Both the position numbers and the translations under genes were made by a program. From contig NZ_JADFFL010000004.1 of the NCBI RefSeq assembly GCF_015222005.1, positions 248,001 to 312,000 on the forward strand: a DNA stretch of 64,000 nucleotides, in the 5' to 3' direction. The notes below the pieces were generated by a model that worked only from the letters and a program-made list of their open reading frames with translations, made no database searches and was not told where the DNA came from. This document shows positions 24,620 to 27,313 of this stretch, one piece after another. Each line of letters starts with the position of its first letter. Position 1 is the stretch's first letter. Source of the DNA: Mucilaginibacter myungsuensis (GTDB lineage: Bacteria; Bacteroidota; Bacteroidia; Sphingobacteriales; Sphingobacteriaceae).

Positions 24620-25060
24620 ATGACCACAGCAACCGACATGAAAACCGTATTGAATGACGCTTCTGTGACCGACTTCCTCGATAGCCGTGCCACCGACCCG
24701 CAAGAGCGCGCCGATTGCGACGCTATCATAGACATCTTGCAAAAAGTGACCGGCCATCCGCCCAAAATGTGGGGCGATGCTATCGTTGGGTTTGACGTGT
24801 ATCACTACAAATACGCCAGCGGTCGCGAGGCGGATATGTGCCTATTAGGTTTTTCGCCACGCAAAGGCAAGTTCAGCCTGTATGTATTAGGCGACTTTGA
24901 AGGCAAAGACGACCTGCTGGCCAAATTAGGCAAACACAAAGTACAAGGCAGCTGCCTGCACGTTAAACGATTGAAAGATATCGATACTGATGTACTGGCC
25001 GAGATAGCCCGCCGCTCTGCCGAGCATACGCGAGGGCTGTATCCTAATTCAGGGTGTTAA
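24620..25060 (+). CDS. DUF1801 domain protein
   Basis: 146 residues. Matches the DUF1801 (YdhG-like) pattern: VTDFLDS at the start, DCDAIIDILQKVTGHPPKMWGDAIVGF, YHYKYASGREADMCLLGFSPRKGKFSLYV and the closing CLHVKRLKDIDTDVLAEIARRS. Function is unknown; frataxin-like alpha/beta fold. No signal peptide. Sits 56 nt after the cupin gene and before a family A repeat. Confidence 0.88.
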   Translation: MTTATDMKTVLNDASVTDFLDSRATDPQERADCDAIIDILQKVTGHPPKMWGDAIVGFDVYHYKYASGREADMCLLGFSPRKGKFSLYVLGDFEGKDDLLAKLGKHKVQGSCLHVKRLKDIDTDVLAEIARRSAEHTRGLYPNSGC

Positions 25061-25075
25061 GGTTATTCGTAAAAA

Positions 25076-25180
25076 CTGGTCGAAGTTTTCAACTTCGACC
25101 TAAAATAGTGCAAGCATCCTGCTTGCGGAAGCTGAAAGCTTTTGACATGTTAGGACGAAGCTATAAGCATCGAGCGGCTT
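25076..25180. repeat. Palindromic element, family A copy 2
   Basis: Left arm CTGGTCGAAGTTTTCAACTT then CGACC, core GCAAGCATCCTGCTTGCGGA and AGCTGAAAGCTTTT. The right arm (TAGGACGAAGC...) is degraded compared with the copy at 13835-13935. It explains most of the 193-nt gap. Confidence 0.7.
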
Positions 25181-25253: not shown

Positions 25254-26366
25254 TTATTTAACGCTATTGACCAGCGTTTCGATGAATTTTTTTGACGATT
25301 CTTTCATCGGTACAAATTGATTACCTAAAGATGTACTGCAATCCAAAACCAATACTACACCAACATTTTTTGCAATCGATTTTACACCTTTAGTATCTTC
25401 AATGTCGGTTTCATAATCATTCTGATTATATTTATATGATAAAGACAAATCTTTTACAAATAAATTTTGTCCATTACTTGAGGTAATGGAAAGGTTTTCT
25501 AAAGGGATAGTGGCCTTTTCAACAGGTTTACCACCACTGATAATAGTAGATATGGTCCCAGAAATCGGCGTCCCATCATCTCCTATAAATTTAACGGATG
25601 ATGATTTTGCACTTGTTACCTTAAAAACTGGAGATTTCTTGTCTATGTTCGTCATCTGGGCAAAGATGGTGAATGGCGTGGATGCGCCTGTAAATTCCGG
25701 GGTGCTATACGTATTGAATGTGATACGGAAATATTTAGGAGAAGATGCAAATATCTCTACATTATTGGTTACTATCGATATATTCTGCGAAGTTGCAATA
25801 AGTGATTGAGCTATGGATTGAAATATGCTATTGATGTTGGATGAGTTAGCTTGCAAATATTGACCATTCACAGCTAAGTACGAAAGGTCTGCATCTATAA
25901 CAGCGCCATTACCCTTAAAACCTATGGTGTAACTTTTTATTGGTTTGTTAGAAATAGACGTATTTCTTAACAGATCTGCGGTGTATGGTATTACGGCTCC
26001 CTGGCCAACATTAGTGAAAAAATTAGCTGAAACGTTATCCAAACCATCGGTAAAACTAACGATAAAAGCTTGGTCAAGAGTCTGGGTCGAATTTAAGGTT
26101 TTGAGTTGTTCAATAGCTGTCTTAACACCATAACACAATGCTGTTTGGTCTACAGTATTTAACAAGCCGTCTATCGCCGAATAAGTTGCTGTAATGTTAT
26201 TATTCATAGCTTTTGGATAAACGGTGCTGTTAAAACCTACGACGCCTAAGAATAACCCTTCTACTGTCTTGTCCGGAACAGGTTCAGGTGTGGTGTCTTT
26301 TCTACATTTAAGAGAACTCAAAATGATTAAGTTCAACAAGAGGATAATGATAAGTTTTATTTTCAT
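25254..26366 (-). CDS. Envelope protein with a vWA-type MIDAS split between the two ends (apparent circular permutation)
   Basis: 370 residues from ATG at 26366. It has a hydrophobic signal (residues 3-19) ending SSLKC-RKD; Lys just before Cys21 is unusual for a lipobox. The N-terminal part reads like a vWA domain from its second strand on: LGVVGFNSTVYP (40-51), TALCYGVKTAIEQL with the likely MIDAS Thr75, and FIVSFTDGLDN with Asp107. The missing first strand and DxSxS motif, VVLVLDCSTSLGNQ (Asp342, Ser344, Ser346), is at the extreme C-terminus with the following helix. A beta-sandwich-like region lies between. Adhesion or protein binding is inferred. AT-rich compared with neighbours. An in-frame start at 26408 lies upstream of the promoter and is rejected. 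Confidence 0.8.
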   Translation of the reverse strand: MKIKLIIILLLNLIILSSLKCRKDTTPEPVPDKTVEGLFLGVVGFNSTVYPKAMNNNITATYSAIDGLLNTVDQTALCYGVKTAIEQLKTLNSTQTLDQAFIVSFTDGLDNVSANFFTNVGQGAVIPYTADLLRNTSISNKPIKSYTIGFKGNGAVIDADLSYLAVNGQYLQANSSNINSIFQSIAQSLIATSQNISIVTNNVEIFASSPKYFRITFNTYSTPEFTGASTPFTIFAQMTNIDKKSPVFKVTSAKSSSVKFIGDDGTPISGTISTIISGGKPVEKATIPLENLSITSSNGQNLFVKDLSLSYKYNQNDYETDIEDTKGVKSIAKNVGVVLVLDCSTSLGNQFVPMKESSKKFIETLVNSVK

Positions 26367-26381: not shown

Positions 26382-26408
26382 ATGACAAATATAATAAGTA
26401 CTTGTCAT
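26382..26408 (-). promoter_or_regulatory. Promoter box within an inverted repeat upstream of the vWA-like gene
   Basis: TATATTTG on the minus strand (26386-26393) is an exact -7 match, 20 nt before the ATG. It is framed by a perfect inverted repeat, ATGACAA (26382-26388) and TTGTCAT (26402-26408), which suggests a regulator binding across the promoter. No clear -33 box is seen. Confidence 0.5.
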
Positions 26409-26469: not shown

Positions 26470-26538
26470 CTGGTCGAAGTTTTAAACTTCGACCAAAAAT
26501 AACGCAAGCATCCTGCTTGCGGAAGCTGAAAGCTTTCA
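26470..26538. repeat. Palindromic element, family A copy 3
   Basis: CTGGTCGAAGTTTTAAACTT then CGACCA, followed by GCAAGCATCCTGCTTGCGGA and AGCTGAAAGCTTTC. Nearly identical to the first two thirds of the copy at 25076. Confidence 0.7.
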
Positions 26539-26590: not shown

Positions 26591-27313
26591 TCAATTCCCT
26601 CTCAACTTCCTAAACCCATCATTCTTATAATTCCGTCCGATCGGTATTTCCTTCCCGGCTATTTCTACCGATAACGAGCTATAACTATCCACTTTATCTA
26701 TCGCCACAATAAATGAGCGGTGAATGCGTACGAACAGACCTTCGGGCAGCAGTTCTTCCAGTATGCTGATCTTTTGTTTGGAGGTGATCACACGGCCAGG
26801 CAGAGCTACTTTAATGTAGTCGCCGTCGCTTTCTATCCACAGGATGTCGGCCACATCTACCTTGATCATTTTGCGGTCGGCTTTCAGGTAAATAAAGTCG
26901 TTGGCCGTATTAGTTTGCAGAAGGGTCTCCTGAAAGACCTGTTGTTGCCTGTTGATGCCGAAGTGATGATAAACCTTATCCATCGCTTTCAGAAAGCGGT
27001 CGAACGGGATAGGTTTCACCAAATAATCAATGGCGTTCAGGTCAAATCCTTCTACCGCGTAGTCGTGATAAGCGGTTGTGAAGATCACCTTTGGCGGATC
27101 TTTCAGCGTCCGCACAAGATCGGTCCCTTTCAGTCCGGGCATTTGTACATCCAGAAAAGCCAGATCGACCTTCTTTTGTTGCAGCACGCGGAAGGCTTCG
27201 ATGCCGTCGGGGCATTTGGCTACCACCTCTACATCACCAAAATTTTTCAGGTAAGTATCGATCACCTCAATGGCAAGTGGTTCGTCGTCAACAATAATGG
27301 CCTTTATTTTCAT
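26591..27313 (-). CDS. LytTR-family response regulator
   Basis: 240 residues. Receiver domain (residues 1-120) with acidic pocket Asp9/Asp10, phosphoacceptor Asp55 in FLDVQMPG, Thr in FTTAYHDYA and Lys in YLVKPI. The C-terminal LytTR DNA-binding domain includes DILWIESDGDYIKV and FVRIHRSFIVAI. It is 6 nt after the sensor kinase gene, so the two form a co-transcribed two-component system. Targets are not visible; LytTR regulators often act on adjacent transport or envelope genes. Confidence 0.95.
   Translation of the reverse strand: MKIKAIIVDDEPLAIEVIDTYLKNFGDVEVVAKCPDGIEAFRVLQQKKVDLAFLDVQMPGLKGTDLVRTLKDPPKVIFTTAYHDYAVEGFDLNAIDYLVKPIPFDRFLKAMDKVYHHFGINRQQQVFQETLLQTNTANDFIYLKADRKMIKVDVADILWIESDGDYIKVALPGRVITSKQKISILEELLPEGLFVRIHRSFIVAIDKVDSYSSLSVEIAGKEIPIGRNYKNDGFRKLRGN

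Follow-up and report, generated by a model that had tools for sequence, protein, structure and literature searches.

Few folds have been studied as intensively as the von Willebrand A (vWA)/integrin-I domains. In a vWA domain, strand 1 opens the linear order and the last helix closes it. A gene in a 64,000-nucleotide stretch of the Mucilaginibacter myungsuensis genome (the window) departs from this order, as strand 1 and helix 1 come last in its product. The locus thereby raises the question of whether it encodes a genuine circular permutant, and, if so, whether the fold closes within one chain or between molecules, or whether it is a rearranged or truncated gene. The relevant features are collected in Table 1. 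The hydrophobic leader ends Lys-Cys21-Arg-Lys-Asp, by reading alone a lipoprotein start. An in-frame ATG at 26408 would extend the protein by 14 residues but lies upstream of the promoter-like site TATATTTG, which fits the Bacteroidota promoter motif TAnnTTTG; by reading, the gene content also resembles that of Bacteroidota. The leader matches the corresponding part of the family profile described below at 0.4 bits, which is not significant. It might have been captured from another lipoprotein, a suggestive indication at most.

Table 1. Features of the vWA lipoprotein gene and its surroundings, in window coordinates.
Feature	Position	Strand	Basis or remark
DUF1801-like gene	24620-25060	plus	neighbor; name by reading
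Left flanking repeat, two small palindromes	25076..25143	plus	63/68 bases identical to right copy
Whole coding sequence	25254..26366	minus	370 aa + stop
Residues 336-370: vWA strand 1, DxSxS loop and helix 1, then stop codon immediately	25257..25361	minus	profile to 166; Pfam VWA 2-31
DCSTS (D342, S344, S346 of MIDAS)	25329..25343	minus	sequence; invariant in 14/14 relatives
Residues 223-335: family's N-terminal beta-rich domain	25362..25700	minus	profile from 31, 52.3-bit segment; alignment to relatives
Residues 220-222: new join of family's old C- and N-terminal ends	25701..25709	minus	gap between matched segments
Residues 40-219: vWA strand 2 to end and family's short C-terminal tail	25710..26249	minus	profile 172-338; 60.8 bits
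D107 of MIDAS (FTDG motif)	26046..26048	minus	invariant in 14/14 relatives
T75 of MIDAS	26142..26144	minus	invariant in 14/14 relatives
Lipobox-type Cys21	26304-26306 (codon)	minus	mature chain starts CRKD; direct sequence reading
Signal peptide, residues 1-20	26307..26366	minus	direct sequence reading
Promoter-like site TATATTTG	26386..26393	minus	19 bases before ATG 26366; sequence
Right flanking repeat, two small palindromes, same orientation as left	26470..26537	plus	63/68 bases identical to left copy
LytTR-type response regulator	26591-27313	minus	neighbor; name by reading

Membership among vWA proteins was indicated by general domain profiles, with which the protein shares its motifs, although the native order gave only weak matches below cutoff. 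Positions 41-106 of the 107-position Pfam VWA_2 profile (PF13519) align with residues 41-108, and positions 2-31 of the 174-position VWA profile (PF00092) with residues 337-365, so that the beginning of the VWA profile sits at the C-terminus of the protein. The MIDAS set is complete (D342, S344 and S346 of the DxSxS motif, together with T75 and D107). Reordering the sequence raised the VWA score from 11.9 bits (E 0.27) to 25.5 bits (E 1.7e-5), past the cutoff of 23.8, and the VWA_2 score from 15.7 to 26.2 bits, just short of the cutoff of 27. The expectation of the first-pass annotation that a rearranged order would score better against vWA profiles was thus confirmed. Searches of solved structures listed a single match, 6pyo, for the native and reordered sequences alike. 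This chain of the calcium-activated chloride-channel family carries vWA motifs, and its E value improved from 0.39 to 0.016 with reordering.

Closer relatives supplied the reference order. The first of these, L002 from a Chitinophagales metagenome-assembled genome, has the normal order and a clean vWA domain (E 4.6e-10); 19 of 298 genomes of its order, its own included, match at E 1e-6 or better, in one place each. When L002 was searched against 395 genomes, 87 matched, and the matches listed, except those of G460 and of the own genome, begin at L002 residue 134 or later, at the vWA domain; such vWA-only matches were excluded as family members. A 341-position family profile, A5, was built without the M. 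myungsuensis protein from 14 normal-order proteins, namely L002 and 13 (L039-L051) of the 18 loci L039-L056, the remaining five (L052-L056) being left out since they match little beyond the vWA domain. Two of the 14, L044 and L002, are cut short by contig ends. In Pfam, the A5 members match mainly general vWA models (VWA_2 in 14/14, VWA in 13/14 and four other models in one or two members each); among them, the NCBIfam scan covered L002 alone. The best solved match of the family profile was Proximal thread matrix protein 1 (4cn8, E 3.8e-25), which has vWA domains like the A5 family but, unlike the protein studied here, carries two of them, each matched in normal order.

The normal-order lipoproteins consist of a signal peptide with a lipid cysteine (present wherever the start of the protein is), an N-terminal beta domain, a complete vWA domain with MIDAS and a short C-terminal tail. 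The M. myungsuensis protein shares all of these parts, being homologous to both the beta domain and the vWA domain, but differs in their order: signal peptide and lipid cysteine are followed by vWA strand 2 to the end, the C-terminal tail, the beta domain, and finally strand 1 and helix 1. The order is unrotated in 14/14 relatives. In two close normal-order relatives (L059 4702-6396 and L060 5530-7227), the vWA lipoprotein gene is directly followed by a gene for a secreted-looking protein of 209-212 residues, a possible two-gene unit. This partner reads like a small outer-membrane barrel, and the two vWA proteins are 67% identical; no such partner gene was found in the four other neighborhoods examined or beside the M. 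myungsuensis gene.

Searching with A5 resolved the protein into two segments. Profile positions 172-338 correspond to residues 40-219 (60.8 bits) and positions 31-166 to residues 223-368 (52.3 bits), against a best domain score of 7.4 bits from 500 shuffles of the protein; the swapped match is therefore not due to chance. Each segment of the profile is present once, in swapped order. Positions 1-30 are the leader. The protein lacks the last three positions and also positions 167-171, which separate vWA helix 1 from strand 2. Because the cut falls in this short stretch between their columns, helix 1 and strand 2 both look whole in the alignment. Pairwise BLASTP gave two main segments, residues 281-369 aligning with L002 87-173 and residues 40-155 with L002 178-280, and only four residues separate the two in L002. 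Since the normal-order relatives have the same beta domain, vWA domain and C-terminal tail, the rotation extends beyond the vWA domain to the whole mature chain. At the new ends, helix 1 runs to LVNSVK and the stop codon, and strand 2 (LFLGVVGFN) starts 17 residues past the lipid cysteine. At the new join, the old C-terminal tail YFRITFNTYS (LRFRIKCQLF in L042) passes through a short linker into the old N-terminal domain, PFTIFAQM (EFVLFAEY in L042).

The protein retains 14 of 17 family-invariant columns, among them those of all five MIDAS residues and that of E323, which precedes strand 1. The three lost are the lipid cysteine, for which the leader supplies Cys21, a tyrosine replaced by M238 and a glycine replaced by A84. 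Identity to the relatives is 21-36% over residues 37-222 and 15-26% over residues 223-370 (beta domain and strand 1). These alignments agree with what the first-pass annotation had proposed, namely a circularly permuted vWA with strand 2 to the end first and strand 1, DxSxS and helix 1 last. Its motif assignments and numbering were also right, with DxSxS lying 24-28 residues from the C-terminus, and the beta-rich domain that it placed between the vWA parts proved to be the family's N-terminal domain. As read from its sequence, the gene is a circular permutation in which a piece normally near the middle of the chain is now last, and none of the relatives examined has such an arrangement. Taken as a whole, the observations are best explained by an exported lipoprotein whose entire chain is naturally circularly permuted relative to its vWA lipoprotein family and closes on itself, a reading that we consider probable.

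How would such a chain fold? AlphaFold2 gave models too low in confidence to be used, with pLDDT 33.8 and pTM 0.24 from the single sequence, and pLDDT 34.8 and pTM 0.21 from three rows (the protein and two unchanged L002 fragments). We infer that one chain takes the usual vWA shape, with the C-terminal strand 1 in the central slot of the sheet. MIDAS domains bind acidic ligands, and D342, S344, S346, T75 and D107 would come together in one metal site for such a ligand. The new join is short, at 3 residues by the profile or, judged by eye, about 12 from one flanking strand-like stretch to the other, and self-closure would be strained were the old ends far apart; the completing segment is at the free C-terminus of the protein. 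Both features would suit an intermolecular completion, in which the C-terminal strand 1 and helix 1 of one molecule insert into the open sheet of its neighbor to give a dimer or a surface chain. We regard this as unlikely, as the link that joins the beta domain to strand 1 is about as long in the normal-order relatives, where all parts are contiguous, and as the N- and C-termini of vWA domains are in close proximity as a rule according to PMC3919171, a paper that itself reports an exception. Self-closure is favored by this closeness of vWA ends and by connections that, the new join excepted, are about as long as those of the relatives. A head-to-tail vWA polymer, with each C-terminal strand 1 completing its neighbor's metal site and every site shared by two molecules, is quite unlikely; if it were true, the permutation would have turned a self-contained binder into an assembling one.

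In a self-closing chain, the preferred reading, the beta domain would sit as one uninterrupted insert between the vWA pieces, and the vWA domain could close only after synthesis of the final residues. Helix-to-strand loops are located on the side of a vWA fold that faces away from the MIDAS, and the lipid tether would therefore hold the domain by its far face. The predicted function is that of a metal-dependent binder, likely lipid-anchored at the cell envelope.

The permuted gene is known from one species, as one gene, and is present in a single copy in its genome. It stands alone between the DUF1801-like gene and the LytTR-type response regulator, bracketed by direct repeats 1394 bases apart. 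Counting both flanking repeats, the genome contains exactly three copies of the 17-base repeat core GCAAGCATCCTGCTTGC. The GC content of the gene is 0.36 and its GC3 0.33, compared with 0.45-0.54 and 0.46-0.65 in 13 other genes measured. No other member was found in 149 same-genus genomes, its own included, by searches with the protein or a two-row profile. The AT-rich composition, the position between near-identical direct repeats and the lack of a relative in the 148 other genomes of the genus suggest that the gene was acquired from outside the genus. With the DUF1801-like gene as anchor (a match in 31 of 61 same-genus genomes, its own included), no empty insertion site was found at 14 other DUF1801-like loci covering about 1.5 kb on each side, 13 of which lack all of the other four neighbor genes tested. 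As no empty site could be shown, the case for acquisition rests on composition and distribution. At one locus (L143, in G327), the DUF1801-like gene adjoins a LytTR/kinase pair (34% and 37% identity) in a relative orientation different from that in the window.

Two main models of circular permutation, duplication with trimming and fission with fusion, are set out in PMC3320104. Most likely the permutation originated by tandem duplication and loss of the outer parts. Loss of the front of the first copy, after the leader, and of the back of the second would yield the permuted order while retaining the first leader. Inspection by eye showed no remnant of a second copy or of the lost halves beside the gene, and the genome holds a single copy; the duplication route is therefore unproven.

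The confinement to one species, the foreign composition and the flanking direct repeats would also fit a functionless rearranged gene, or an assembly error, that keeps an open frame by chance. We consider this improbable. The 370-codon frame retains its leader, its lipobox, all MIDAS residues and 14 of the 17 invariant columns, and the cut falls between two secondary-structure elements, all of which speaks against this reading. So do a genome that is 99.97% complete in 23 contigs, the single copy of the gene, and the 482,757-base length of its contig (C4).

In wider searches, no other permutant appeared in the 399 genomes of the family or the 400 of the order that were sampled, both samples including the genome itself and overlapping with each other and with the genus set. 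One candidate from another genus of the family (L003) was rejected, its match extending no further than the leader and first strand (residues 4-49) inside a lipoprotein that reads as SusD-type; the residues encoded at window positions 26220-26357 are 41% identical over 46 residues to the start of the SusD-like protein. A second (L004/L034, from G460) was rejected as a permutant because it has the normal order. It is a family member interrupted by stop codons and a frameshift and looks like a pseudogene (L034 5164-5841), and among 108 genomes of the order of G460 only this broken normal-order gene was found. Seven genomes of the family of G988 yielded the two known members and two vWA-only matches. 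Scans of viral contigs for relatives gave a short vWA protein (L057) that is not a family member; among 63 viral loci, three contain a frame that A5 matches with an E value of at most 0.01, the strongest scoring 29.9 bits, again with no family member. Searches of plasmid and phage proteins gave no match.

Across 147 sequence sources, 91 open frames match A5. Seven are the M. myungsuensis gene itself, seen through overlapping loci, and it is the only swapped one; the other 84, some of them the same gene twice, have one matched segment each. That there is no permutation, and that the gene is instead the truncated remnant of a longer protein carrying two vWA domains, as the weak Pfam match of each half alone might suggest, is scarcely credible, because the profile segments 31-166 and 172-338 occur a single time each and because none of these 84 frames is a two-vWA homologue of the kind that the first-pass annotation had named as the case against its reading.

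Circular permutation has precedents in other folds. The saposin/swaposin pair represents the same kind of evolutionary event (PMC3320104), as do the cpRAS GTPases, in which the vWA domain is a partner and not the permuted domain (PMC2430557). The permuted domain is a methylase in PMC7824862, the lipocone domain in PMC12419801 and a transglutaminase-like peptidase in PMC8195603. A search of the full text of open-licence papers found no circularly permuted vWA described among the matches listed, which does not establish priority.

Genes of this type are missed by domain annotation, the native order falling below the Pfam vWA cutoffs and the reordered one passing one of them. The M. myungsuensis gene is a natural experiment on whether a vWA domain can receive its central strand 1, with the metal site, at the very end of the chain, and on what moving the lipid tether does to the orientation of the binding face.
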